From Pseudomonadota bacterium (GTDB lineage: Bacteria > Pseudomonadota > Gammaproteobacteria > Xanthomonadales > Rhodanobacteraceae): a DNA stretch of 35,180 nucleotides. Shown here in pieces: positions 1 to 17,044 of this stretch. Both the position numbers and the translations under genes were made by a program. Numbering within the stretch: position 1 is the stretch's first letter; each line of letters begins with the position of its first letter. The DNA lies in NCBI GenBank assembly GCA_021794575.1, contig JAJYQO010000006.1, positions 1 through 35,180 on the forward strand. The letters are read 5' to 3'. The notes under the pieces are model-generated. The model worked only from the letters and a program-made list of their open reading frames with translations, searched no databases and was not told where the DNA came from.

Positions 1-2691
1 CTCGGCGTGGTCTCGGTGACCGGTTTCGTCAGCAGCATCACCAATTCCACTGCCATCCAGCGCTATTCCAGCGAGATCGTCGAAGCGGTTTCGGCCGAGC
101 AGATCGGCAAGCTGCCCGGCATCAGCATCGCCGACGCGCTGGGCCGCATGCCGGGCCTGGCGGTGCAGACGCTCAACGGCCGTCCGCAGGTGGTGTCGAT
201 CCACGGCTTCGGTCCCGACTTCAGCACTGCGCTGGTCAACGGCAACGAGCAGGTCAGTACCGGCAACAGCCGCGGCGTGCAGTACGACCAATACCCGGCG
301 AGCTGGTTCAACAGCGTGGTGGTGTACCTGACGCCCAAAGCCAGTCTGATGGGTCAGGGCCTGGCGGGCACGGTGGACCTGCGCACCATCCAACCGCTGG
401 ACGAGCCCCATCGTATTGCGGCCTTCACAGCGGGGTATACCTGGAACAGCCAGTCCACGCTGTCACCGGGTTTCAGCAACTCGGGTTACTCGGTCAACGG
501 AATCTGGGCGGATCAGTTTTTCAACAACACCCTCGGCGTGGCACTGGGCGTGGACTTGCTGAAGAGCCCCACCCAGATCGAGCACCAGCAGCCGTGGGGC
601 TATCCCAACGCCAGCAACGGCGGCCCGGTGGTGGTGGGCGGCGACAAGAACTACGGTTTTTCCGATCTGCTGGGACGCACCGGCCTGCTGGGTACCCTGC
701 AGTGGCGTCCTTCGGACAACTTCAGCAGCACCCTGACCACGACCTACGACAACTTCCGTGAGGACCAGCAGGCGAAGGGCATCGAGTTTCCGCTGTTATG
801 GAGTGCAGCGCAGTTGCAGCCGGGTTACACCGTCAATAATGGTTTTGTCACCGGCGGCACTTACAGCAACGTCAAGGCGGTGGTGCGCAACGACTACAAC
901 AGCAATTATGCCAAGGTCTACAACATCGACTGGAACAACAAGTACCGCATCAACGAGGACTGGTCGGCCGATGTCGATGCCAACTACTCGCGCGCCAACC
1001 GTCGCAGCTTTTTGATGGAGTCCTACAGCGGTACCGGTTACTCCACGGCCAACGGCGCCACCGACACCATTGGCTTCAACGAACTGAGCAGTGGTCTGCT
1101 GTATCTCAATCCCACGTTGAACTACGCCTCCAGCCAGTTCGTGCTGACCGATCCGCAGGGCTGGGGTGCCGGCGCCTCTCCGTCGATCGTGCAGGCCGGC
1201 TTCATCAATGCGCCGCGCACCACCGACTACATCGCGGATCTGCGCGCCGGCCTCAAGCGCGATTTCGAGAGCGGCCCGTTCTCCAGCGTGCAATTCGGCA
1301 TCGACCGCAAGACGCGCAACAAGACTTACAACATCGACCAGTATTTCCTGACCCTGCCCAACGGCAGCCAGACCTACACCACCGTGCCGATCGGCGCGCA
1401 GACAGCGCCCATTCCCACGGCGGCGCTGGTCAATGGCGGCAGTTGCGATCCGCTGGCATTCATGGGAGTGGGTCCGCAGGTTTGCTACAACCCGCTGTAC
1501 CTGCTCAACAACGGCTACTACACCGTGTTCCCCACGGCGCTGTCTTCCATCGGGGTGCCGCCCAATTGGAAGGTGCACGAGATCGACACGACGCCCTATG
1601 TCCAGTTCAACCTCGATACGCACGTCGGCTCCATTCCGTTGACCGGCAATTTCGGACTGCAGGTGGCGCATACGCTGCAGGGTGCCGCCGGCCAGCGCGT
1701 GACGCCCAGTAGCGGCACAGGCGGCGCAGGCGCGCAGGTCCAACTGGTGCCGGTTTCCGGCAGCACCAGCTACACGCGCTATCTGCCCAGCATGAACCTG
1801 ATCTTCGGCCTGACCGACAACACCGATCTGCGCGTCAGCGCCGCGCGGGTGATGGCGCGCGCGCGCATGGATCAGATGAATGCCAGCATGAGCATCAATA
1901 CCAACATCACCCAGTTGGCCTCGACCAATCCCAACCAGGCCTACTTCAGCGCGAATGGCGGCAATCCCAAGTTGCTGCCGACTATGGCCGACGACTACAA
2001 CATCAGTCTGGAGCACTACTTCGAAGGCAACCAGGGCTATCTGGCCGCTTCCGCATACTTCCTGAAACTGCACGACTACATCAATCCCAATGCAGCCTAT
2101 CTGGCCGATTTCACCCCATTCATCAGCAGCTATCTCGACGCCGCCCAACAGCAGCAACTCGGCACTCCGCTGGGTATCGTCTCGGGGCCGGTCAACAACG
2201 GCTACGGCAACGTCAAGGGCGCGCAGGCCACGGCCAGCGTTCCGCTGAAGCTGCTGACGCCGATGCTGAATGATTTCGGCGTGATCCTCAGCGCCGACTA
2301 CACCAAGAGCTCGCTGGTCTATGCCGGCAACTCGACGCCGATCACGGTGCCCGGTTTGTCGAAGTGGGTGACCCAGGAAACCGTCTATTTCCAGCATGGC
2401 GGGCTCCAGGCGCGTGTCAGCCGCAGCTTCCGCAGCAGCTTCCTGGGCGAGGTCAGCGGCATCAGTGCGACGCGCATCCTGCAGACCATCCGCGGCGGCA
2501 GTTCCTACGATGCCCAGGTGAGCTACTCGTTCAACAGCGGTCGCTTCAAGGGCATGACGCTGATCCTGCAGGGTTCCAACCTGACCAACAAGCACTTCGT
2601 CACCTATCAGAACAACGATCCGCGCCAGGTGCTGATTTGGGAAAACTACGGTCGTAGCTACGAAGCCCTGCTCTCTTACAAGTTCCAGTGA
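1..2691 (+). CDS. TonB-dependent receptor (5' end outside window), probable maltodextrin/oligosaccharide receptor
   Basis: Outer-membrane active transporter energised by TonB-ExbBD. The frame is open from base 1, so the start codon and signal peptide lie upstream; an in-frame GTG at 7 is not the true start. The first residues (VVSVTGFVSS) resemble the TonB box region of the Xanthomonas/Caulobacter receptor family. A plug domain follows, with IGKLPGISIADALGRMPGL and IHGFG-type motifs, and then about 700 residues of beta-barrel rich in aromatic and Asn/Gly strands. The end SYEALLSYKFQ is a typical barrel closing strand. Only the exported leader and a short N-terminal stretch should be missing. 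The substrate is inferred from the GH13/GH31, sugar transporter and LacI genes downstream; receptors of this family take up maltodextrins in Caulobacter (MalA). A strong terminator follows directly, so the next gene is probably transcribed separately. Confidence 0.92.
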   Translation, partial: LGVVSVTGFVSSITNSTAIQRYSSEIVEAVSAEQIGKLPGISIADALGRMPGLAVQTLNGRPQVVSIHGFGPDFSTALVNGNEQVSTGNSRGVQYDQYPASWFNSVVVYLTPKASLMGQGLAGTVDLRTIQPLDEPHRIAAFTAGYTWNSQSTLSPGFSNSGYSVNGIWADQFFNNTLGVALGVDLLKSPTQIEHQQPWGYPNASNGGPVVVGGDKNYGFSDLLGRTGLLGTLQWRPSDNFSSTLTTTYDNFREDQQAKGIEFPLLWSAAQLQPGYTVNNGFVTGGTYSNVKAVVRNDYNSNYAKVYNIDWNNKYRINEDWSADVDANYSRANRRSFLMESYSGTGYSTANGATDTIGFNELSSGLLYLNPTLNYASSQFVLTDPQGWGAGASPSIVQAGFINAPRTTDYIADLRAGLKRDFESGPFSSVQFGIDRKTRNKTYNIDQYFLTLPNGSQTYTTVPIGAQTAPIPTAALVNGGSCDPLAFMGVGPQVCYNPLYLLNNGYYTVFPTALSSIGVPPNWKVHEIDTTPYVQFNLDTHVGSIPLTGNFGLQVAHTLQGAAGQRVTPSSGTGGAGAQVQLVPVSGSTSYTRYLPSMNLIFGLTDNTDLRVSAARVMARARMDQMNASMSINTNITQLASTNPNQAYFSANGGNPKLLPTMADDYNISLEHYFEGNQGYLAASAYFLKLHDYINPNAAYLADFTPFISSYLDAAQQQQLGTPLGIVSGPVNNGYGNVKGAQATASVPLKLLTPMLNDFGVILSADYTKSSLVYAGNSTPITVPGLSKWVTQETVYFQHGGLQARVSRSFRSSFLGEVSGISATRILQTIRGGSSYDAQVSYSFNSGRFKGMTLILQGSNLTNKHFVTYQNNDPRQVLIWENYGRSYEALLSYKFQ

Positions 2692-2797: not shown

Positions 2798-4309
2798 ATG
2801 GACGGACAGCGTCTCCACGACATCGTGATCGTCGGCGGCGGCACCGCGGGCTGGATGGCCGCCGCGCTGCTGGCGCGCGCGCTGGGCCGCGCGGTGTCGA
2901 TCACGCTGGTTGAATCGGAGGAGATCGGCACGATCGGCGTGGGCGAAGCCACCATCCCGCAGATCCGCCACATCAATGCCTTCCTCGGGCTGGACGAAGA
3001 CGCGGTGATGCGCGCCGCGCGCGCCACCTTCAAGCTGGGCATCCAGTTCAACGACTGGCTGCGGCCCGGACACTCCTACATCCATGCTTTCAGCGACATC
3101 GGGCTGCCGCAGGGCGGCGTGCCGTTCCAGCACTACTGGCTGCGCGAGCGCGTGCAGGGCGGACAGCATCCGCTGTGGGCCTATTCGCTCAACGCGCAAG
3201 CGGCGGCAGCGGAGCGCATGGCGCGCATGGAACAGGTCGGCAGCAGCCCGCTGACCGGCATGCGCTGGGCCTACCACTTCGATGCCGGCCTGTATGCGCA
3301 GCACCTGCGCAAGGTGGCCGAGGGCCTGGGTGTGCGCCGTGAGGAAGGCCGCATCGTGGATGTGGAACTGCGCGGCGAGGACGGCTTCATCGCGGCAGTG
3401 AAGCTGGCGCGCGGCGCGCGCATCGCCGGCGAGCTGTTCATCGACTGCTCCGGCTTCCGCGCGCTGCTGATCGAGGGTGCCCTGCACGCCGGCTACGACG
3501 ACTGGCGGCACTGGCTGCCCTGCGACCGCGCGCTGGCGGTGCCCAGCGCGCGCGTCGAGCCGATGCGTCCCTACACGCAGGCCAGCGCGCGCGGCGCCGG
3601 CTGGCAGTGGCGCATTCCGCTGCAGCACCGCACCGGCAACGGCCACGTGTACTGCAGCGAGTTCATCGGCGACGACGAGGCCGCGGCGATTCTGCTGGCT
3701 AACCTCGAAGGCGAGGCGCTGGCCGCGCCGCGGCCGTTGCGCTTCACCGCCGGCATGCGCCGCCAGGTGTGGTCGAAAAACTGCGTGGCGCTGGGTCTGG
3801 CTGCGGGCTTCATGGAGCCCCTGGAGTCCACCACCATCCACCTGGTGCAGTCGGGCGTCGACCGTCTGCTGAAACTGTTCCCGGATGCGCGTTTCGAGCC
3901 CGCCGTGCGCGACGCGTTCAACCGGCAGACGCGCTTCGAGTACGAGCGCATCCGCGATTTCCTGATCCTGCACTACACCGCCAGCGAGCGCCGCGACACG
4001 CCGTTCTGGCGCCACTGCGCGGCCATCGCGCGGCCCGAGGGCCTGCAACAGAAGATCGAGGTGTTCCGCGCCTGCGGGCAGATCTTCCGCGACGGCGAGG
4101 AGCTGTTCACCGAGGTGGGCTGGCTGCAGGTGCTGCTGGGGCAGGGTGTCGAACCGCAGGCCTACCACCGCTTGGCCGATGCGCTGCAGCCCACGCAGTT
4201 CCGTGAGTTCATGGGCAACCTGCGCACGCTGATCCAGCGCGCGGTGGCCGGCATGCCCGGGCACGCCGACTTCGTCGCCCAGCATTGCAAGGCGGCGGCT
4301 ACGACCTGA
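2798..4309 (+). CDS. Flavin-dependent tryptophan halogenase family protein (first copy)
   Basis: A 503-residue flavoprotein of the tryptophan halogenase family. These enzymes use FADH2, O2 and halide to make hypohalous acid, which is delivered to an aromatic substrate through a lysine. The sequence shows the dinucleotide-binding motif GGGTAG (13-18), the catalytic lysine in FKLGIQF at K79 (same number as in PrnA), the halogenase hallmark WQWRIP (269-274), and PLES (341-344), whose Glu matches the substrate-positioning Glu of PrnA. All key residues are intact, so it is probably active, but the substrate cannot be read from sequence. No flavin reductase is visible nearby. Relatives beside TonB receptors in Xanthomonas and in metagenomes (BrvH) brominate free indole in vitro. 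ATG at 2798 has GAGG upstream. Converges on the DUF1801 gene. Confidence 0.9.
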   Translation: MDGQRLHDIVIVGGGTAGWMAAALLARALGRAVSITLVESEEIGTIGVGEATIPQIRHINAFLGLDEDAVMRAARATFKLGIQFNDWLRPGHSYIHAFSDIGLPQGGVPFQHYWLRERVQGGQHPLWAYSLNAQAAAAERMARMEQVGSSPLTGMRWAYHFDAGLYAQHLRKVAEGLGVRREEGRIVDVELRGEDGFIAAVKLARGARIAGELFIDCSGFRALLIEGALHAGYDDWRHWLPCDRALAVPSARVEPMRPYTQASARGAGWQWRIPLQHRTGNGHVYCSEFIGDDEAAAILLANLEGEALAAPRPLRFTAGMRRQVWSKNCVALGLAAGFMEPLESTTIHLVQSGVDRLLKLFPDARFEPAVRDAFNRQTRFEYERIRDFLILHYTASERRDTPFWRHCAAIARPEGLQQKIEVFRACGQIFRDGEELFTEVGWLQVLLGQGVEPQAYHRLADALQPTQFREFMGNLRTLIQRAVAGMPGHADFVAQHCKAAATT

Positions 4310-5347: not shown

Positions 5348-6880
5348 TTACGACCGCGCCCGGCAATGGCGCTCGATGTACTGCCGGTGCGTGGGCATGG
5401 CCTGTACGGCTTCGGCGATGACGCGGCGCAGGCTGCCGAGCAGGCGCGGCGCATCGACGTCGCTGCGCAGGTCGACCAGCGGATCGTAGCGCTCGGGCCA
5501 GACTTCCTGGCCGGTGAGCACCGCCAGCCAGTTCGGGTTCTGGAACAGCTCCAGGCTCTCGGCGACGAGGCGGCCGTGGCGGCGGAAATGGTCGATCTTG
5601 TATTGCAGCGTGTCCGGGATCGGCATCGCGCCGGTGTAACGCCACAGCGGCGCGTCGTCGCGCCGGGTGGCGTGGTAGTGCAGGATCAGGAAATCACGGA
5701 TGCGCTCGTATTCCGCATGCGTGATGCGGTTGAATTCCTGCGCCGTGATCGGGTCGAAGTCGCGATCCGGAAACAGCGCCAGTAGGCGGGTGATCGCCGA
5801 CTGGATCAGGTGGATGCTGGTCGATTCCAGCGGCTCCATGAAGCCCGCGGCCAGGCCGATGGCGACGCAGTTGCGGTTCCAAAACTGCCGGCGTCGCCCG
5901 GCGGTGAAACGCAGGAACCGGGGTTCGGCCAGCGGCGTGCCCTCGAGGTGGTCGAGCAGCACCTGCGCAGCCTCGTCGTCGCCGATGAACCGGCTGCAGT
6001 AGACGTGGCCGTTGCCCATGCGGTGCTGCAGCGGGATGCGCCACTGCCAGCCGGCCGCGTGCGCGGTGGCGCGGGTGTACGGGGTGGGGTCGCAGCCGTG
6101 CGTGCACGGTACGGCCACCGCGCGGTCGCAGGGCAGCCAGTGCTGCCAGTCTTCGTAGCCGGTCTGCAGCGCGCCTTCGATCAGCAGGCCGCGAAAGCCC
6201 GAGCAGTCGATGAACAGGTCGCCCTCCAGCACGGCACCACCAGCGAGCGTCACGCTCCGGATGAAGCCGTCGTCGGCGCGCAGAGACACATCGACGACCT
6301 TGCCTTCGGTGCGCAGCACGCCGCGTTGTTCGGCATAAGCGCGCAAGTATTTCGCATACAGCGCGGCGTCGAAGTGGTAGGCGTAATCGTAGGTCGATTG
6401 CACGCGCTGGCGGTCGGCCAGCGGCCGATCGAACTTGCCGTTGCGCGCCGCCACCCAGGCCATCGCGTAATCCTGCAGCGGCGTGGTGTCGCCGCGCGCA
6501 CGCTCGCGCAGCCAGTAGTGATGCAGCGGCACGGCGTCGAACTCGACGCCGATCTGACCGAACGGATGGAAGTAGCGCTGCTGCAGGCGCGTCCAGTCGA
6601 CGAATTCGATGCCCAGCTTGTAGCTGCCTTGTGTGTAGGCCAGGAACTCGTACTCGTCCAGTCCCAGCATCTGGTTGAAGCGTTTGATCGGCGGGATGGT
6701 GGCCTCGCCCACGCCGATGCTGCCGATCTCCTCCGACTCGACCAGCGTGATCGGGCAGCCGCCCGCGCTGGCGTGCACCAGCGCGGCGGCCGCCATCCAG
6801 CCCGCCGTTCCGCCGCCGACGATGACGATGCGGCGCAGGCTGCGCGGACCGCCGCCGGATGCGCGCGTGAGTTCAGCCAT
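5348..6880 (-). CDS. Flavin-dependent tryptophan halogenase family protein (second copy)
   Basis: A 510-residue paralogue of the halogenase at 2798-4309, alike over the full length. It has GGGTAG (22-27), the catalytic lysine in YKLGIEF (K88), WQWRIP (278-283) and PLES with the conserved Glu (E352), so the active site is complete. The ATG at 6880 is preferred over a GTG at 6904 because it overlaps the stop codon of the antiporter gene upstream (ATGGCTGA), a coupling arrangement, and GGAG lies 9 bases before it. The differences from copy 1 are concentrated in the substrate-facing middle part (residues 92-170), suggesting a different substrate or a partner enzyme. The substrate is unknown; the family name should not be read as proof of tryptophan use. 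Confidence 0.9.
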
Positions 6881-8072
6881 GCTGCGCGGCTCCGCTGGCG
6901 GCACGCAGCCGCGGCGCCACCATCGGCACGGTAAGCATGGTGCTGACCACGGCCATCAACAGCAGCGCGGTGAAGGTATCGCTGCTGATCAGGCCGCGGT
7001 CGAGCAGGATGTTGACGTAGATGATCATGATCAGCGCCTTGGTCTGCAGCAGCCAGCCGATGCGCCAGGCATCGCCCTTGGTCCAGCCCAGCAGGCGCCC
7101 GGCCAGAGCCACGCCGGCCAGCTTGCCGGCGATCTCCGCCAGCAGCAGCAGCGCGGCGGCGCCGAGCACGGCCAGGCCACCCAGCGACCAGCCGGTACGC
7201 AGCCCGGTGGACAGGAAAAACACCGGCATCAGCACCAGCAGCACGTTCTCGCGCAGCCCGTCCAGTTGCTTGCCGTCGAACCAGTCGCGATCGATCACCA
7301 TGCCGGCCAGGAACGAGCCGACCATGAAATGCAGGCCCGAATGATCGGCCGCGAACGCCACCAGCGCCAGCCACACCAGCGCCACGTACCAGCGATCGGC
7401 CGCGGGCAGCGCGCGCAGCAGGCGGCGGAACAGCCAGGCGGCGGGGAAGAACAGCAACAGGAACGTCAGTTGCAGACCGATGCGGTGCCAGTCCAGCAGG
7501 ATCAACGCCAGCACCGCCCAGATCGCCACGTCGTCCAAGCTGGCGTAACGCAGTACGCGCTGTCCGAACGGCGTGCGCAGGATGGCCAGTTTGTCCATCA
7601 GCAGCACCAGGATCGGCAGGGCGGTGACCGCGCAGGCCATGCCCACGCCCAGTACGAACTGCCAGTCGTCGCCGCGCGGGCCGATCCAGCCGCCGCGCCA
7701 GGCCAGCATGCCTGCCGCCGCCGCGGCACCGAACAGCAGCGGCGTGCCCAGCGCCAGCGCCGCCGTGGTGCCGCATTCGCGGCGCTGGCGCCAGACTTCC
7801 TTCAGGTCCAGTTCGATGCCGGCGATCCACACGAACAGCATCACGCCCCACCAGGCCACGCCGTTGAGCGCCTGCACCACGCGCGGTTCGAAAACGGCGT
7901 GGTAGCAGGCGGGAAACGCCGCACCCAGCAAGCCCGGCCCCAGCACGATGCCGGTGATGATCTGCACCACTACCAGCGGCGCCCAGTAGTCGGTGCGGCC
8001 CAGCCGCCAGATCGCATAGGGCAGTCCGAAAATGATCGCCAGCGCGATCAGAAAGCGTTCGGTATCGGTCAT
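6873..8072 (-). CDS. CPA2-family cation/proton antiporter
   Basis: A 399-residue inner-membrane protein with about 12 hydrophobic segments, matching the membrane domain of Kef/NapA-type monovalent cation:proton antiporters. The conserved AGIELDL segment (84-90) and the paired acidic motif SLDDVAIW (D180-D181) are present. Two adjacent Asp in this position are typical of electrogenic Na+/H+ exchangers of the CPA2 group. There is no cytosolic RCK/TrkA-N domain, so it is a short form. The open frame extends far upstream, but the upstream residues are low-complexity and the [11 protein letters not shown] start at 8072 gives a normal N-terminus; the ribosome site is weak. It shares an operon and an 8-base overlap with the downstream halogenase and is divergent from the GH13-GH31 gene. 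Confidence 0.88.
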
Positions 8073-8186
8073 CGCGATGGGCGTTGTGTAGTGCGTGCCG
8101 CAGCCTAACCTGAAAACGGCGTTCACGGCTTCGCCGATGCGTGCCGCAGCAGCCGCGCGCGCGGGACATCGCACGGATTCGATGCA

Positions 8187-8200
8187 TGAATACGTATGCA
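8187..8200. promoter_or_regulatory. Candidate LacI-family operator
   Basis: TGAATACGTATGCA is a 14-base palindrome with one mismatched pair and a central CG, the usual architecture of LacI-family operators. It lies in the 208-base divergent gap between the antiporter and the GH13-GH31 gene, 80 bases before the latter's ATG. The regulator would be the LacI-type protein at 15935-17044. The match is by shape only; no second copy is visible in the window. Confidence 0.4.
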
Positions 8201-8280
8201 CACGCACCCGGCACTGCCGCCGCGGCCTACCATCACGACAAGTGCCCGCGACGACGGGTCGCCACGAGGGAATTGCCGAA

Positions 8281-11200
8281 ATGCCGAGTTCACACCGGAC
8301 CCGCGCGCCGCGGGTCGTGCTTTCGCTGTTGTTTGCCGGGTTGCTGGCTTCGGCTTGTGCGTGGGCCGCACCGCGAGCGGCCGCACCGGCCGCGTCCGGC
8401 ATCGGCGCGCCGGCGCCCTCGGGCGTGTATTACGAAATCTTCGTGCGCTCGTTCTACGACAGCAACGGTGACGGCATCGGCGATCTCGCCGGCGTTACCG
8501 CCAAGCTGCCCTACCTGAAGTCGCTCGGCGTCAGCGGCATCTGGCTAACGCCGATCTTTTCCTCGCCCAGCTACCACGGCTACGACATCACCGATTACCG
8601 CGCCATCAACCCGCAGTACGGCACCATGGCCGACTTCGAGCGCCTGGTGAAAGCCGCGCACGCCGACGGCATCAAGGTGATCCTGGACATGGTGATCAAC
8701 CACACCAGCGACCAGAATCCATGGTTCGTCGCCGCGCAGAATCCAGCCAGTCCCTACCACGACTGGTACATCTGGGCCGGGCCGCACACCAACCTCGACG
8801 CGAAAAGCCCGTGGGGCGGCCCGGTGTGGCGCACGTCGGGCAAGCAGCATTACATGGGCATTTTCTGCGGGTGCATGCCCGATCTGAACTACGACAATCC
8901 CGCCGTGCGCCGCGAGATGATCGACATCGGCCGCTTCTGGCTGCGACACGGCGCCGACGGTTTCCGTCTGGATGCGGCCAAGCACATCTACGACAAGCTG
9001 GAGCAGGACGATCGCAGCGTGGCGATCATGGACAAGGACGCGGCGTGGTGGGACGAGTACCGGCAGGGCCTCGACAGCGTCGATCCGCACGCCTATCTGG
9101 TCGGCGAGGTGACGGGCAGCCACTACGGACTGAATGCGCCGTTCGTGAAGCCGCTGAACGCGGTATTCGACTTTCCGCTGGCCGAGCGTCTGGTCAAAGC
9201 CGCGCGCAGCGGCCGCGACGACGGCATCGGCCGCGACCTTGTGCACATGCAGCGCCTGTATCTGGCCGCGAGCGGCCGCTACGTCATGGACGCGCCCTTC
9301 CTCACCAACCACGACCAGGACCGCATCATGAGCGACCTGGACGGCAACGTGGACAAGATGAAGGTGGCCGCGGCCATGCTGCTGACCCTGCCGGGCAACC
9401 CCTTCGTCTACTACGGCGAAGAGATCGGCATGCAGGGCACCAAGCCCGATCCGCAGATCCGCGAGCCGATGCGCTGGGATGCCAGCCTCGACGCCCCCGG
9501 CGAGACCACCTGGGAGCCGCTGCACATCGCGGCCAACCGGGCCGTCTCGGTGCAGGCCGAGCAGCACAATCCGCGTTCGCTGCTCGACCGCTATCGCACG
9601 CTGATCCACTGGCGCATGGACATCGCGCCGTTGCGCGACGGCGTGGCCGGCACGTACGAAACTGGTAATTCCGCGCTGGCCGCATGGCGTCTGAGCGACG
9701 CCGAGGGCAGCGTGCTGGTCGCGCACAACCTCTCGGCAACGCCGCAACAGCTGGCGCTGCGCGTCGAGGACGGCCTCGCCTTCACCCGCCTGCTGCGCAG
9801 CACGCGCGCGGGCACCAAGGTCGAAAAGGGCACGCTGGACCTGCCGCCCTATGGCAGCGCGGTGCTCGAGGGAGTCGCCGCGACGACTGCCGCGCCTGCA
9901 GCAGCGGCCAGCGCGCCTGCACTGGTGACGGTGAAGCACCGCTACGGTTTCGACCTGCGCTACGGCAGCGACGTGCTGACTCTGCGCTGGCTGTCGCCGG
10001 ACACGCTCGACGTGCACTTGCTGCCGGGTGCGCACGCCCAGCCGGATACCCTGGTGCTGGCGCCGGATCGCGGCTTCATGCGTTTCGCGCCGGCCACCAG
10101 CGACCAGGACGGTACGCTGCTGCAGCGCTCCGCGCAGATGCAGGTGCGCTGGAATCCGGCATCGTTGGCACTGGCCATCGACGGCAGCGACGGTCGGCCG
10201 TTGCTGCGGCTGACCGACCTCGGCGCGCTGCTGAGAGGACATCTGGACATGGCGGCCGACCCCGCCGACGCGCTGTACGGTCTGGGCGGCTACAGCAAAT
10301 CCAATGATTCGAGTGCGGGCATCCTGCGCACGGGCACATGGACTGTGAAGGCCGGCGAGCAGGGTCACCCGGGTGCCCCGTGGCTCTGGAGCACGGCGGG
10401 CTGGGGCGTGCTGGTCGATACGCTGGGCGCGCAGGTGCATATCAGCGACGGTCATATCGCCTGGAGCGATTTGTCCAAACCCGACACGCATTTCCTCGTG
10501 ATCGCCGGCCCGCCCGCGGCCTTGTTCACGGGCCTGCGCAAGCTCAGCGGCGCAGCGCCGCTGTTCCCGAAGTGGTCGCTGGGCTTCATCAACAGTCAGT
10601 GGGGGATCGACCAGCGCGAGTTGCTGCACATCGTGCGCAAGTACCGCGCTCTGCAGATCCCGCTGGATGCCTTCTCGCTGGACTTCGACTGGAAGGCCTG
10701 GGGTCAGAACGACTACGGCGAGTTCCGCTGGAACACTGCCAAGTTCCCCGGCGGCCCGAACGGTTCACTCAAGAAACAACTCGACGCGTTGGGCGTGCAC
10801 CTGATCGGCATCATGAAGCCGCGCATCCACGTCGACACGGTCGAGGGCCAGTACGCCAGCGCACACGACTTCTGGTTCCCGGGCCTGCAGGCCGAGCCGG
10901 ATTATTTCTCGCACAAACTGGTGCAGGATCTGGCCTTCGACAACCCGGCGGTGCGCGCCTGGTTCTTCAACCCGGCGCTGCGCCACAGTTTCGAGACCGG
11001 GATCGTGGGCTGGTGGAACGACGAGGCCGACACCACGCCCGACGATACCCAGTTCATGAACATGGAGCGCGCGCTGTATGACGGTCAGCGCAAGTATTTC
11101 CCCGACACGCGCGTGTTTTCGCTGAACCGCGACTTCTATCTGGGTGCGCAGCGCTACGCCTACGCGCTGTGGTCGGGCGATATCGATACCGGCTTCGCCA

Positions 11201-12189
11201 GCATGGCCGCGCAGCGCGAGCGCATGCTCAGCGCCATCAACGTCGGCGAGATGTGGTGGGGCATGGACGGCGGCGGCTTCAACGGCCATCCCAGCCCGGA
11301 GAACTATGCGCGCTGGATCGAGTTCGACGCGTTCTGCCCGATCTTCCGCGTGCACGGCACCTTCGGCCAGCGCCGCCAGCCCTGGATCTACGGGCCCAGG
11401 GCCGCGGCTGCGGCGGTGGCCGCCATGCGCCTGCGCTACCGTTTGTTGCCTTACATCTACAGCTATGCGTGGCGGGATCACGCCACCGGCGTTGGCGTGG
11501 TGCGTCCGCTGGCGATGGCCTTCCCGCAGGATGCCGCCGTGCGCAACGACATCAGCGCGTGGATGTTCGGCGACGGACTGCTGGTCGCGCCGGTGATGGA
11601 TCCGGGACAGACGCGCAAGACCGTTCAGTTGCCGCCCGGCACCTGGACCGACTGGGCCACCGGCAAGGTGTACGCCGGCGGACAGGCGATCACGATTCCC
11701 GTGGACGCGAAGACCTGGGCCGATATCCCGCTGTTCATCCGCGCCGGGGCGATCATTCCCATGCAGCCGGTGATGGAGTACGTGCACCAGGTGCCGGTGA
11801 CCCGGTTGACGGTGCAGGTGTTTCCAGCCGCCGCGCGCAGCGACTTCGACTATTACGATGACGACGGCACCAGCTACGCCTACGAAACAGGCGTCTACAC
11901 TCTGCAGCGCATCAGCACACAGCGCGTGGGCACGACCGTGAGACTCGACATCGATCCGCCGCATGGCAGTTACCGGTCGGCGCTGCGCACGTATCTGTTC
12001 GCCGTGCACGGCATCGCCGCGCGCGCGCTGCGGGCCGGCGGCGAGGCACCGCCGCGGCGCGCCGACCTGCGCGCGCTCGAAGCCGATGCCGCGCCCGGCT
12101 GGAGCACCGGGGCGGACCGTTATGGTCCGGTCACCTACATCAAGCTGCACGCCGGGCAAGGCGCGCGCCTGACGCTGGAGGCGCCATGA
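8281..12189 (+). CDS. Exported GH13-GH31 fusion alpha-glucosidase/amylase
   Basis: A 1302-residue exported enzyme with two complete alpha-glucosidase-type modules. Residues 1-30 form a signal peptide (AWA/AP cleavage; C26 in LLASAC makes a lipoprotein possible). Residues about 45-530 are GH13: YYEIFVRSF, then DGFRLDA (nucleophile D231), GEV (acid/base E276) and NHDQ (D345). The MPDLN motif is that of the intermediary GH13_36-like group. An Ala/Pro linker (532-548) leads to a GH31 module: beta-sandwich, [14 protein letters not shown] (from 762), NDEAD with D914 as probable nucleophile, WSGD with D967 as probable acid/base, and the GGGFNG and FCPIFRVHG segments. ATG 8281 is chosen because the signal peptide starts there, with GAGGG 10 bases upstream. 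It likely degrades maltodextrins in the periplasm or at the surface. Its stop overlaps the next gene by ATGA. Confidence 0.92.
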
Positions 12190-14441
12190 CCCGGCGTCCG
12201 GGCGCGGTGCTGCTGGCGCTGGCACTGACCGTCGCCGCGCCGCTGCACGCGGCCCCCGCGGATGCTTGGCACACGCAACTGGACTGGCAGGGCCGGCAGG
12301 CGGTGCTGCGGCGCGACGGCGCGGGCTTCGTGCTGCGCGGCCCCGAGGGCACGCGCAGCATCCCGGCGCCGGCCTGGCGCGCGGACACCGCCAGCACGCT
12401 GTTCGATGGCCTGTTCGCCATGGCCCAGGACGATCTGCGTCGCGATGCCGTCGCGCGGATCACCGACGGCGCCTGGAATCACGGCAAGCCGATTCCCTGC
12501 GAGTGCTTCATCGCCGGCAAGCAGTGGCCCTTCGTGTGGACGCGCGACCTGTCGTATTCGACGGATCTGGCGCTGTGGCGCTTCGATGCGCCGCGCGCGC
12601 GCCGCTCGCTGGCCTTCAAGCTCTCCGGCGTGCGTGTGGTCGACGCGCCGCGGGGCCTGTACGTGCTGCAGGACACCGGCTCCGGCGGCAGTTGGCCGAT
12701 CAGCACCGACCGCGTGGTGTGGTTCCTGGGCGCGCGGCACCTGCTGGACGATCCGGCCTTCGCGGCCAGAACCTGGCAGGCGCTGCGGGACACCCTGGCG
12801 CAGGATCGCACGTACGCCTTCGACGCGCGCGTGGGCCTGTACCGCGGCGAAACCTCGTTCATGGACTGGCGCGAGCAGACCTATCCCGGCTGGACCGCAC
12901 ACAACGTGCGCTTCATCGCCGAGTCCTACGCGCTGTCCACCAACGTGCTGCACTTCGACGCCCTGCGGCTGGCCGCGCGGCTGGCGCGACAGCATGGCGA
13001 CGCGGTCGGGGCGGCGCGCTACACGCGGCAGGCCGCTGCGCTCGCAACGGCCATCAACCGCTGGTTCTGGAACCCGCAGCGCGGCCTGTACCGCAGCTAC
13101 CTCGGTCCCGGCGATCCGCCGCTGCCGGTGGATGCCTACGATCTGCTGGGTACCACGCTCGCCATCGTGAGCGGCGTGGCCAAGGGTGCCCGCGCCAGCG
13201 CAGCGCTGGCGGACTATCCGACCTGGCCCGCCGGCAGTCCGGTGATCTGGCCCGAGCGTGCCAGCCAGCCGGTCTATCACAATCGCGCGCTGTGGCCCTT
13301 CGTCAGCGCCTATGCGCTGCGCGCCGCGCGCGCGGTTCGACAGCCGGCGCGCATCGCGCACGAATTGCGCAGCCTGATGCGCGCCGCGGCGCTGGCCGGC
13401 TCGAACATGGAAAACTTCGCCCTGCCGCAGCTCAGCAGCCACCTGCCAGGCAAGCTGGGCGGGCCGGTGGTGGATTCGCGTCGTCAGCTGTGGTCGGTGG
13501 CCGGTTATCTGAATGCGGTCGTGGAGGGCGTGTTCGGGCTGCAGTCCGACGGCCGCATCGTGCCGGAGATTCCGGTCAGCCTGGTGCCGACACTGTTCGG
13601 CACGGGGGACACGATCACGCTGCACACGCCGCGGCAGACAGTGATCCTGCAGCGACCAGCAACGCTGGCCGGCAACCTGCTGGTCGAGCAGCGCCGCGCG
13701 GTGCGGGGCGCTACGACCATGCTGTGGCTGCAAGCCATCACCGTCGCCGATCCGCCGCTGCGCGCGCCGACGCCTGAATTTGCCCCGGCCACGCCGGCGC
13801 CCCCCGTGCTGCGGCGCGATGGTGCCGAGTGGCGCATCGCCAGCGCCGTGCCGGCCACGCTGTGGGTGGATGGCCGCGCGCAGGCCGGCGCAGCCGCGCG
13901 GCGGTGGACGCTGCGCGCCGGCAGCGCGCGCCGCTGCCTGGCGCTGACCGTGCGCGAGGATGGCGTGGACTCGCTGCCCAGCGATCCGGTCTGCGTGGGC
14001 GACAGCGCGCACGTCGGCGGCGCTTGGCCGCGCGCCTGGACAGCGCCGGCCACCGGCGACTACGTGCTGCGGCTGGCGTTCGAAAACCCGCACGGTCCGA
14101 TCAACACCGGCGTTACCGCCGCGGTGAAGCGCATCACCGTGCGCTGCGGCGCCGCGCCGCCGCGGACACTGCCGGTGGTGATGCCGCAAGGCCGCGGCTG
14201 GCAGCGCTCGACCACGGCACACTTTCATGCGGCGGCCGGTGCGCGTTGCAGCTTCGCGCTGCGGCAGGGCTTCAACATGAGCTTCCTCGCGCAGGCCGCG
14301 CTGTACACCGGTGGCGAGGGCGGCAGCGCGGGACCACTGAACCAGGCCCGCGTCGGCGATCTGCTGATTTCGCCCGCGCCCGCAGGTATCGTGCTGGCCA
14401 CGCCGCAAGCTGCGCCGGCGCGGGCCGGGGACGCACCATGA
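12186..14441 (+). CDS. Exported six-hairpin (alpha/alpha)6-barrel glycosidase-like protein with C-terminal beta domain
   Basis: A 751-residue exported protein. The signal peptide ends at LHA/APA (about residue 23). Residues about 75-480 resemble the MGH1/GH63-like six-hairpin fold, with WTRD (118-121), an SGGSWPISTDR-type segment and RGETSFMDWREQ (220-231). D121, E222, D227 and E230 are candidate catalytic acids; I cannot assign a GH family. The C-terminal part (about 600-740) is beta-rich with a carbohydrate-binding look (NPHGPINTGVTAAVK). Its ATG overlaps the stop of the GH13-GH31 gene by ATGA, and its own stop overlaps the transporter start the same way, so the three are translationally coupled. 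It probably removes a sugar type that the GH13-GH31 enzyme cannot, but the substrate is inferred only from context. Confidence 0.8.
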   Translation: MTRRPGAVLLALALTVAAPLHAAPADAWHTQLDWQGRQAVLRRDGAGFVLRGPEGTRSIPAPAWRADTASTLFDGLFAMAQDDLRRDAVARITDGAWNHGKPIPCECFIAGKQWPFVWTRDLSYSTDLALWRFDAPRARRSLAFKLSGVRVVDAPRGLYVLQDTGSGGSWPISTDRVVWFLGARHLLDDPAFAARTWQALRDTLAQDRTYAFDARVGLYRGETSFMDWREQTYPGWTAHNVRFIAESYALSTNVLHFDALRLAARLARQHGDAVGAARYTRQAAALATAINRWFWNPQRGLYRSYLGPGDPPLPVDAYDLLGTTLAIVSGVAKGARASAALADYPTWPAGSPVIWPERASQPVYHNRALWPFVSAYALRAARAVRQPARIAHELRSLMRAAALAGSNMENFALPQLSSHLPGKLGGPVVDSRRQLWSVAGYLNAVVEGVFGLQSDGRIVPEIPVSLVPTLFGTGDTITLHTPRQTVILQRPATLAGNLLVEQRRAVRGATTMLWLQAITVADPPLRAPTPEFAPATPAPPVLRRDGAEWRIASAVPATLWVDGRAQAGAAARRWTLRAGSARRCLALTVREDGVDSLPSDPVCVGDSAHVGGAWPRAWTAPATGDYVLRLAFENPHGPINTGVTAAVKRITVRCGAAPPRTLPVVMPQGRGWQRSTTAHFHAAAGARCSFALRQGFNMSFLAQAALYTGGEGGSAGPLNQARVGDLLISPAPAGIVLATPQAAPARAGDAP

Positions 14442-15928
14442 ATCGCAAGCCCGAGCTGTCGTTCTGGCAGATCTGGAACATGTGCTTCGGGTTTCTGGGC
14501 ATCCAGTTCGGCTTCGCCTTGCAGAACGCCAACGTCAGCCGCATCTTCCAGACCCTCGGCGCCAGCGTGGACCAGATCCCGATCCTGTGGATCGCGGCGC
14601 CGCTGACCGGCCTGCTGGTACAGCCGATCATCGGTCACTACTCGGACCGCACCTGGACACGGCTGGGCCGGCGCCGGCCGTACTTTCTGGCCGGCGCCAT
14701 CCTCAGCACGCTGGCGCTGCTGGTGATGCCCAACGCGCCGGTCTTGTGGTTCGCGGCGCTGACGCTGTGGATCATGGACGCCTCGTTCAACGTGTCGATG
14801 GAGCCCTTCCGCGCCTTCATCGCCGATCAGTTGCCCGAGCGCCAGCGTCCGTCCGGCTACGCCATGCAGACGTTCTTCATCGGCATCGGCGCGGTGGTGG
14901 CTTCGGCGCTGCCATGGCTGCTGGCGCAACTCGGTTTCGACAACACCGCTGCGCCCGGAGCCGTGCCGGAAACCGTGCGCTATGCGTTCTATGCCGGTGC
15001 CGCGGTGCTGCTGCTGTCCATGCTGTGGACGGTGGGCAATACCCGCGAGTACCCGCCGCAGCAGCTCGATGCGTTCGTGGACGGCGCGGCAGAGGCGACA
15101 CCGGTTGCCACCGACAGCGCGCGCCTGTGGCGCGGCGCCGGTGCATGGTCGCTGGCCGGCCTCGCGGCGGGGGTCGCGGTGTGGTGGCTGGCGCTCAAGC
15201 CCGAGGTCTACCTGCTGGCGACCGGGCTGCTGGCCTACGGGCTGCTGCAGGCGGGACTGGCGTGGCGCCAGCGCGATGGCGCGGCAGTGGGCACGGCACC
15301 GGCCTGGGCGCAGATCATGGGCGACCTGCACGGCATGCCGCAGGCGATGCGTCGCCTGGCCTGGGTGCAGTTCTTCTCGTGGTTCGCGCTGTTCGCGATG
15401 TGGATCTACACCACGCCGGCGGTCACCTCCATGCAGTTCCACGCCAGCGATCCGCAGTCGGCCGCGTACAACACCGGCGCCAACTGGGTGGGCATCCTGT
15501 TCGGTGCCTACAACGGCGTGGCCGCGCTGGCGGCCGCCGTGCTGCCGTTGCTGGCGCGGCTGCTGGGCCTGCGCCGTGCGCATCTGCTCAATCTGTGGTT
15601 AGGCGCGGCAGGGTTGTTCTCGATCACTCTGATCCGCAATCCCGACCTGTTGCTGCTGTCGATGATCGGCGTCGGCATCGCCTGGGCCTCGATCCTGTCG
15701 CTGCCCTACGCGCTGCTGGCCGACCACCTGCCGGCGCGCAAGATGGGCGTGTACATGGGCATCTTCAATTTCTTCATCGTGATCCCGCAACTGCTGGCGG
15801 CCAGCGTGCTGGGGCTGTTGGTGCGGGATCTGTTCCACGACCAGCCGATGGGCGCGCTGGCGCTGGGCGCGCTGAGCCTGTTCATCGCCGGTCTGGCGGT
15901 GCTGCGCGTGCGCGAGCCGGGGCGCTGA
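14438..15928 (+). CDS. GPH/SUC-type MFS sugar transporter
   Basis: A 496-residue inner-membrane transporter with about 12 hydrophobic segments. The loop motif DRTWTRLGRRRPYF between helices 2 and 3 is characteristic of the GPH:cation symporter/SUC group that imports sucrose, maltose and related disaccharides with protons or sodium. Long in-frame sequence upstream belongs to the preceding gene in another frame. The ATG at 14438 lies in the ATGA overlap and has GGGGA 7-8 bases upstream, and the protein starts normally with MNRKPELSFWQIW. As the third gene of the operon it would carry the maltose or glucose released by the two exported hydrolases. It ends six bases short of the convergent repressor gene. 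Confidence 0.9.
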   Translation: MNRKPELSFWQIWNMCFGFLGIQFGFALQNANVSRIFQTLGASVDQIPILWIAAPLTGLLVQPIIGHYSDRTWTRLGRRRPYFLAGAILSTLALLVMPNAPVLWFAALTLWIMDASFNVSMEPFRAFIADQLPERQRPSGYAMQTFFIGIGAVVASALPWLLAQLGFDNTAAPGAVPETVRYAFYAGAAVLLLSMLWTVGNTREYPPQQLDAFVDGAAEATPVATDSARLWRGAGAWSLAGLAAGVAVWWLALKPEVYLLATGLLAYGLLQAGLAWRQRDGAAVGTAPAWAQIMGDLHGMPQAMRRLAWVQFFSWFALFAMWIYTTPAVTSMQFHASDPQSAAYNTGANWVGILFGAYNGVAALAAAVLPLLARLLGLRRAHLLNLWLGAAGLFSITLIRNPDLLLLSMIGVGIAWASILSLPYALLADHLPARKMGVYMGIFNFFIVIPQLLAASVLGLLVRDLFHDQPMGALALGALSLFIAGLAVLRVREPGR

Positions 15929-15934
15929 GCCGTA

Positions 15935-17044
15935 TCAGTGACGCGCGCCGCGCGCCGCGCGCCGCGCGCGCGTGGGCAGCGCAGTGACGGTGGCGGGCGA
16001 GCGCGTGGGCTGCAGAGGCATGCCGCAGGACTGGCGCACGATCAACTGCGGCGCCAGCTTCAGCGGCTGCACGGGCTCGCCGTGCACCAGCTTCAGCAGC
16101 GTATCCACCAGCAATTCGCCGGCACGCCGCGTATCCTGCTGCACGCTACTGAGAGCGGGGTTGGTGAATTGCGCCATGGGGATGTCGTCATAGCCGACGA
16201 TGGCGACATCCTCGGGCACGCGCAGGCCGCGCGCGCGCAGCGCGCGCATGGCACCGATGGCGATCAGGTCGCTGGCGCAGACCAGCGCGTCGAGGCGCGC
16301 GCCGCGTTCCAGCACCAGCTCGGCGGCCTCGCGCCCGGCCTGTTCGGTGGAGATGGCATCGGCCTGCAGCAGCGGATCGGGCGTCAGCGCCGCTTCGCGC
16401 AGCGCGGCGGCATAACCCTGGTAGCGCTCGAGAAACTCGGGTGCGCCCTGCGAGGCGTGGCCGAGAAAACCGATGCGGCGCCGGCCCAGCGCCAGAAGGT
16501 GGCGTGCCGCGGCCAGTCCGCCGGCGTGATTGTCGCAGCCTATGGAGAGGCCGGGCTGGTCGGCCAGCACCGCGCCCCAGCGCACGAAGTGCGTCCCCTG
16601 CGCCACCAGCGCCTCCAGCCGGCCGCGGTAGTCACGGTAGTCGCCGTAGCCGAGCAGGATCAGGCCGTCGGCCTTGTGGCAGTCCTCGTAATCGGCGTGC
16701 CAGTCGCGCGAGAGCTGCTGGAAGGAGACCAGCAGGTCGTAGCCGCGCTGCGCGCAGACGCGGGTGATCGAACCCAGCATCGAGTGGAAGAACGGATTGA
16801 TGTTGGAGTCATCGACCGTGGGATCTTCGAACAGCAGCAATGCCAGTGTGCCGGACTGCTGCGTGCGCAGGTTGGAGGCGTTCTTGTCGACTTTGTAGTT
16901 GAGCTGGCTCGCCACTTCCAGCACGCGATCACGGGTGGCGCGATTGACCGAGGGGTGCCCGCGCAGCGCGCGCGACACCGTGGCCTGCGAAACGCCGGCC
17001 AGGTGCGCGATGTCCAGCGAATTGGGCTTGCCTTTGACGACCAT
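15935..17044 (-). CDS. LacI-family transcriptional regulator of the sugar locus
   Basis: A 369-residue repressor. The helix-turn-helix is at residues 9-30 (SLDIAHLAGVSQATVSRALR), followed by the hinge and a periplasmic-binding-protein-like effector domain (about 62-340, with VAIVGYDDIPMAQF). The best reading is a MalR/AglR-like repressor of the convergent glycosidase/transporter operon, lifted by a sugar effector. Start ATG 17044 has a G-rich AGGGGGG ribosome site. The C-terminal 20 residues are Arg/Ala-rich (TRARRAARGARH), encoded by a CGCGCCG-type tandem repeat, and extend past the normal end of the family. The stop lies 6 bases from the transporter's stop. Confidence 0.88.
   Translation of the reverse strand: MVVKGKPNSLDIAHLAGVSQATVSRALRGHPSVNRATRDRVLEVASQLNYKVDKNASNLRTQQSGTLALLLFEDPTVDDSNINPFFHSMLGSITRVCAQRGYDLLVSFQQLSRDWHADYEDCHKADGLILLGYGDYRDYRGRLEALVAQGTHFVRWGAVLADQPGLSIGCDNHAGGLAAARHLLALGRRRIGFLGHASQGAPEFLERYQGYAAALREAALTPDPLLQADAISTEQAGREAAELVLERGARLDALVCASDLIAIGAMRALRARGLRVPEDVAIVGYDDIPMAQFTNPALSSVQQDTRRAGELLVDTLLKLVHGEPVQPLKLAPQLIVRQSCGMPLQPTRSPATVTALPTRARRAARGARH
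15941..15972. repeat. CG-rich short tandem repeat at the 3' end of the LacI gene
   Basis: About 30 bases made only of C and G, with repeated GCGCGCC/CGCGCCG units, lie inside the last codons of the LacI-family gene and encode Arg/Ala. Copy number could vary by slippage, which would change the frame of the extreme C-terminus only. Confidence 0.6.

Follow-up and report, generated by a model that had tools for sequence, protein, structure and literature searches.

Within the window, the whole stretch of 35,180 nucleotides that was analysed, a single gene encoding both a GH13 and a GH31 module lies among genes for a TonB-dependent receptor, halogenase-family proteins, transporters and a LacI-family regulator. 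The features of the locus and the modules of the fused protein are collected in Table 1.

Table 1. Genes, protein modules and candidate sites of the locus, in window coordinates
Feature	Position	Strand	Basis
TonB-dependent receptor, TonB-Xanth-Caul subfamily	7..2691	+	domain/family match
Tryptophan-halogenase-family protein	2798..4309	+	domain match
Second tryptophan-halogenase-family protein	5348..6904	-	domain match
Cation/proton antiporter frame	6873..8402	-	NCBIfam matches below cut-off
Operator-like imperfect palindrome TGAATACGTATGCA, candidate LacI-type site	8187..8200	+	upstream of fused gene
Fused GH13-GH31 gene (1302 aa)	8281..12189	+	open frame and Pfam
Signal-peptide-like start, the GH13 protein's own (residues 1 to ~30)	8281..8370	+	hydropathy core; same N-terminus in unfused locus L015
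GH13 catalytic module, residues 53-450, D231/E276/D345	8437..9630	+	Pfam Alpha-amylase, motifs
GH13 C-terminal domain SusG_C, residues 467-528	9679..9864	+	Pfam
Linker, residues 532-548, fusion junction	9874..9924	+	corresponds to Ala/Pro-rich mature N-terminus of unfused GH31
GH31 N-terminal region, without Pfam match	9925..10557	+	aligns to 5x7o
GH31 catalytic barrel, residues 760-1061, D914/D967	10558..11463	+	Pfam Glyco_hydro_31_2nd
GH31 C-terminal domain, residues 1071-1159	11491..11757	+	Pfam Glyco_hydro_31_3rd
DUF5110, residues 1176-1244	11806..12012	+	Pfam
(alpha/alpha)6-type protein, next gene	12186..14441	+	predicted fold; no family over cut-off
MFS sugar transporter frame, start not refined	13829..15928	+	NCBIfam match below cut-off
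LacI-family regulator	15935..17044	-	domain match

Setting of the fused gene

A TonB-dependent receptor, an inner-membrane transporter, a regulator and degradative enzymes occur together at the locus, as in CUT-type systems, and on this gene content the locus is assigned to maltodextrin uptake. In relatives, an unfused GH13-GH31 gene pair is surrounded by many of the same genes; some of these loci show losses and additional GH13 genes. The arrangement resembles the maltodextrin CUT locus of Xanthomonas (XCC2469; XAC2595-XAC2602), for which a TonB-dependent receptor, a sugar transporter, a regulator and alpha-glucan enzymes are described in PMC1790865 and PMC10714752, and induction of XCC2469 by maltose was reported in the former. 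Unlike the window, the Xanthomonas locus is described as carrying a CGTase-like GH13 enzyme, alpha-glucosidases and, in X. citri, GH97, and the word GH31 is absent from the main text of PMC10714752. Given this gene setting and the likeness to the Xanthomonas CUT locus, the fused protein was read as a putative periplasmic maltodextrin-processing enzyme.

The start codon of the next gene lies inside the stop of the fused gene (ATGA at 12186-12189). For its product neither Pfam, above cut-off, nor NCBIfam, at E 1e-5, gave a family. At a coverage of 93% or more it was present in 42 of the 80 named loci, and many stretches stop short of it. The predicted fold, of fair confidence (pLDDT 77.9, pTM 0.85), is (alpha/alpha)6 glycosidase-like, and the 50 PDB matches listed for the model, all below TM 0.55, include phosphorylases, rhamnosidases, trehalases, GH63 and glucodextranase, among others. 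On this model the protein is a candidate member of an unassigned glycosidase family.

Upstream of the fused gene, a search for palindromes allowing up to three mismatches gave a single match, TGAATACGTATGCA, with one mismatch to a perfect palindrome; 0.12 matches were expected, and 12 of 100 shuffles contained one. Its exact 12-mer core, GAATACGTATGC, occurs in 57 of the 80 named loci; of the 61 loci with both genes, 28 have it no more than 500 nt upstream of the GH13 domain. It is possible, judging from these occurrences, that the palindrome is the operator of the LacI-type regulator encoded at the locus.

On the other side of the fused gene, the antiporter frame as listed overlaps it, and its real start probably lies at a lower coordinate. 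Between the window and locus L082, the second halogenase-family proteins share 97% identity, against 74 and 77% for the GH13 and GH31 proteins, and DNA identity is 92% over 5349-7076. This likeness suggests either strong conservation or recent exchange.

Two modules in one frame

The fused gene was read from the assembly as one uninterrupted frame of 1302 codons (1365 aa from stop to stop). An earlier note, made from the letters of the sequence, had described a single exported polypeptide with complete GH13 and GH31 modules joined by an Ala/Pro linker, and this description held: the linker lies where the note had placed it, is interrupted by neither a stop nor a frameshift in this assembly, and all Pfam domains of the protein exceed their curated cut-offs. 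Membership of GH13 follows from PF00128 (Alpha-amylase, 327.5 bits against a cut-off of 22), and that of GH31 from PF01055 (218 bits), PF21365 and PF17137. The five catalytic residues that the note had named were likewise found at those positions and in motifs. D231, E276 and D345 each lie inside their own GH13 motif, and we take them to be the Asp nucleophile, Glu acid/base and Asp stabiliser, respectively. D914 and D967 form the GH31 catalytic Asp pair, with the motif LWSGDIDT; they are common to the solved chain 5x7o and invariant in all 11 rows of alignment A1, the window counted among the rows.

The export signal that the note had proposed corresponds to a predicted signal-peptide-like N-terminus, called from a hydrophobic core in the hydropathy profile. 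A lipoprotein anchor was also considered. The strict lipobox, which was present in 7 of 63 GH13 N-termini (61 named loci, L015 and the window) and 5 of 80 GH31 N-termini (the 80 named loci), is absent from the window; as a looser lipobox around Cys26 is conceivable by eye, no claim is made on membrane tethering. A mixed alignment of GH13-only and GH31-only rows was discarded, its GH31 rows being misaligned (21-24% identity to the window row).

Decay of one of the two modules was tested through alignment columns that are otherwise invariant, and was not seen. The window departs from none of these columns in GH13 (102 rows, the window and 101 relatives) and from one in GH31 (P1233S; 106 rows, the window and 105 relatives), the highest counts among the relatives being two and three, respectively. 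This retention of conserved residues in both halves, together with the named catalytic residues, argues against a fusion in name only, in which periplasmic cleavage at the linker, or loss of function in one half, would leave one or two ordinary enzymes. Clipping would fit a linker that is short, Ala/Pro-rich and equivalent to the mature N-terminus of the unfused GH31 protein, and the linker block has a pLDDT of about 29, within a fused-protein model that is poor throughout (residues 47-1246, 15 rows; mean pLDDT 51.8, pTM 0.40) and was not taken as evidence. With both halves conserved, we consider this outcome unlikely.

The junction in the window and its relatives

Twelve further genomes of the window's genus were examined. 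Adjacent GH13 and GH31 matches were found on one contig and in separate frames in ten of them (G001 and G003-G011; in G010 the GH13 end alone is present on the contig), and the junction was unreadable in the other two, where a GH13 fragment ends the contig (G002) or the matches fall on different contigs (G012). Direct reading of 78 loci (L002-L079, which include several places counted twice) gave 71 with separate genes, six with one module and a single fused one, the window's own L002. Among 80 named GTDB loci, the best 80 of 244 relatives, which include Rhodanobacter, Dyella, Fulvimonas and Oleiagrimonas and many draft metagenome assemblies, none was fused; 61 had separate adjacent pairs and 19 lacked a close GH13 relative, of more than 45% identity, in their stretch. 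Whole-genome searches for the fused protein, conducted within the phylum, gave at least one match in 152 of 233 genomes of the family, 78 of 398 of the order and 187 of 398 of the phylum (overlapping sets, at the limits used), and among the matches listed no row elsewhere spanned both halves. A match was present in 1183 plasmid records, in none of which did a single place cover 80% of the query. Frames of 1300-1600 aa in relatives were considered as further fusions and rejected, since the loci read directly, covering part of such genomes, showed separate frames or intervening stops. Within what was searched, and judged by these comparisons, the fusion is rare or unique, and it looks recent and local; the commonness that the earlier note had named as a refutation was not seen, no second fusion being present among the loci read directly or the matches listed.

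The modules and their order are those of the unfused pair of Rhodanobacter, Dyella and their relatives, whose loci are similar and whose proteins, among the relatives examined, are up to 85% (GH13) and 80% (GH31) identical to the window. In these relatives, unlike the window, a stop codon divides GH13 from GH31, and the GH31 gene has a signal-peptide-like start of its own; in the siblings, the GH13 stop codon overlaps the GH31 start codon. With the conserved AVL/VVL at the end of GH13 and the conserved HRYGFDL motif of GH31 as limits, the junction measures 78 nt in the window and 161, 161, 167, 176, 185, 185, 185, 215 and 215 nt in nine sibling loci from eight genomes, all nine sibling lengths being 2 mod 3. 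The window is therefore shorter by 83-137 nt, and the shortening puts both genes in one frame. By comparison with the nine sibling loci, what is absent is the end of GH13 with its stop codon and the beginning of GH31 with its signal peptide. In siblings, L006 for example, the counterpart of the window linker is an Ala/Pro-rich segment after the signal peptide. The alignment is approximate at the linker, where the sequence changes fast, and so are the end points of the deletion.

A hydrophobic 12-mer preceded by Met was found before GH31 in 59 of the 61 named loci with both genes. The best 12-mer of the window linker has a hydropathy of 1.66, inside the range of the relatives' pre-GH31 segments (1.61-3.03), and hydropathy alone thus does not establish loss of the signal peptide; it is the absence of a Met and of a Leu-rich core, together with the length, that shows the loss. 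In several relatives (L043, L044, L045, L047, L054 and L057-L060), the GH13 and GH31 open frames lie in the same frame on either side of a stop codon, so that fusion there would be possible by stop loss alone.

The identity profile along the GH13 gene was also compared. Against the unfused locus L015, the window is 94-98% identical up to about 9,248 (one bin 86%) and 59-80% thereafter, whereas L015 and L081 remain 85-94% identical beyond this point. The drop points to replacement of the 3' part from an unsampled lineage or to fast change after fusion, and it could also stem from a chimeric contig. About 620 nt separate this break from the junction downstream of it. The junction thus falls inside the right-hand segment, and the idea that the fusion was born at the recombination break was rejected.

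A chimeric contig would be one form of assembly artefact, in which the contig collapses or joins the sequences of two strains and the organism itself has two separate genes. The fusion was seen in one assembly, the change in identity is sharp, and the window may come from a draft metagenome assembly, as many of the named relatives do. However, with the break so far from the junction, the junction lies within one of the two segments, and 83-137 nt are missing with the frame kept; a point error would have left the signal-peptide DNA in place, making a simple sequencing error unlikely. Furthermore, the genes on both sides are the ones that flank the unfused pair in siblings, L086 and L153 among them, and the genome, rated 99.95% complete with 0.03% contamination, contains one GH31 match, that of the fused gene. 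We therefore regard an artefact as very improbable. The genome has three GH13 matches, of which the fused gene is one; the remaining two are weaker and belong to other types. None of the three is an evident counterpart of an additional GH13 protein that adjoins the locus in sibling G001 (L073, 7597-9387), and a maltodextrin-glucosidase-like GH13 protein next to GH31 in L087 resembles one encoded elsewhere in the window's genome, on contig C9.

Overall, the frame, its shortening relative to the siblings, the intact conserved residues and the gene setting are observed, and a lineage-specific in-frame fusion of two neighbouring genes by deletion, in a maltodextrin-uptake locus and giving an exported two-module protein, is the likely explanation. 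A deletion of about 80-140 nt would have removed the last GH13 residues and the stop together with the GH31 start codon and signal peptide, and so brought the GH13 alpha-amylase-like gene and the GH31 gene into one frame. If expressed, the fused protein would be exported by the GH13 signal peptide, with the old GH31 mature N-terminus (Ala/Pro) separating the modules.

Possible activity and significance of the fused protein

Among solved structures, the GH13 half matches 1wza (GH13 alpha-amylase A, presumably from Halothermothrix orenii) over residues 47-498 with 408.6 bits and, less strongly, Bacteroides SusG (3k8k, 257.2 bits), in keeping with the presence of a SusG_C domain; presumably it belongs to subfamily GH13_36. 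Unlike the fused protein, these chains, of 488 and 669 residues, match the GH13 half only. For the GH31 half as a whole, 5x7o is the nearest solved chain (573.7 bits, the next at 189.9 bits); the half aligns to residues 43-822 of its 1263 (structures 5x7o-5x7s), GWWNDE and LWSGDI being common to both. Unlike the window protein, 5x7o has about 440 extra C-terminal residues without a counterpart, the alignment stopping at residue 822 where the window protein ends, so the additional C-terminal modules of that chain are absent here; nor does 5x7o have any match to the GH13 half.

In the pathway that we infer for the fused protein, maltodextrins would enter through the TonB-dependent receptor, and in the periplasm the GH13 half would cut alpha-1,4 bonds and the GH31 half would remove or transfer single glucosyl units at non-reducing ends. 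The (alpha/alpha)6 protein encoded downstream and the MFS transporter would take over the products, with the LacI-type regulator in control. The GH31 half could be an ordinary hydrolytic alpha-glucosidase that takes maltodextrin to glucose, which would be compatible with the fusion as explained above and for which the maltodextrin locus and the PDB name of 5x7o, 'Glycoside hydrolase family 31 alpha-glucosidase', both speak. Against this stands the nature of that closest chain, which we take, despite its PDB molecule name, to be the 6-alpha-glucosyltransferase of Paenibacillus sp. 598K. The Paenibacillus enzyme is described as a 6-alpha-glucosyltransferase in PMC13298954. By this similarity the GH31 half may transfer glucosyl units instead of hydrolysing, and the hydrolytic reading is a serious contender whose chances we put slightly short of even.

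A more specific proposal is a two-step enzyme in one chain, in which GH13 would make short maltodextrins and the tethered GH31 would re-link glucosyl units via alpha-1,6 bonds (panose/isomaltose type), turning maltodextrin into sugars with alpha-1,6 bonds that may serve the (alpha/alpha)6 protein of the following gene in the operon; we offer it tentatively and hold it to be rather doubtful. The fusion had been taken in the earlier note to suggest processive breakdown of branched or mixed-linkage glucans by families with unrelated fold details. No evidence was found for processivity, and mixed-linkage breakdown as a purpose is unsupported, the same two enzymes being separate in relatives and the GH31 half possibly a transferase. 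The wording on folds was too strong, because GH13 and GH31 are both families of retaining (beta/alpha)8-barrel enzymes.

The note had known of no characterised enzyme with this order of modules, and none was found as a single polypeptide among the papers listed in the literature searches, PMC9061262, PMC11093988 and PMC5352709 included. In PMC10108472, 'GH13-GH31' is shorthand for a predicted alpha-glucan locus, and in the archaea of PMC12542729 no protein is reported to combine catalytic domains from more than one CAZyme family. With both halves apparently intact, the fused protein is probably a natural two-in-one enzyme, a new combination of well-known modules and not a new kind of enzyme, and the basic view of either enzyme family is unchanged by it. 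The locus offers a clear-cut view of two neighbouring exported enzyme genes before and after fusion: close siblings have the unfused pair, the length of the missing stretch is measurable, and structures have been solved for relatives of the modules. Fused and split forms can be compared directly for the effect of tethering two glycosidases. If the GH31 half is a transferase, the protein would be a ready-made single-chain catalyst for isomalto-type oligosaccharides.
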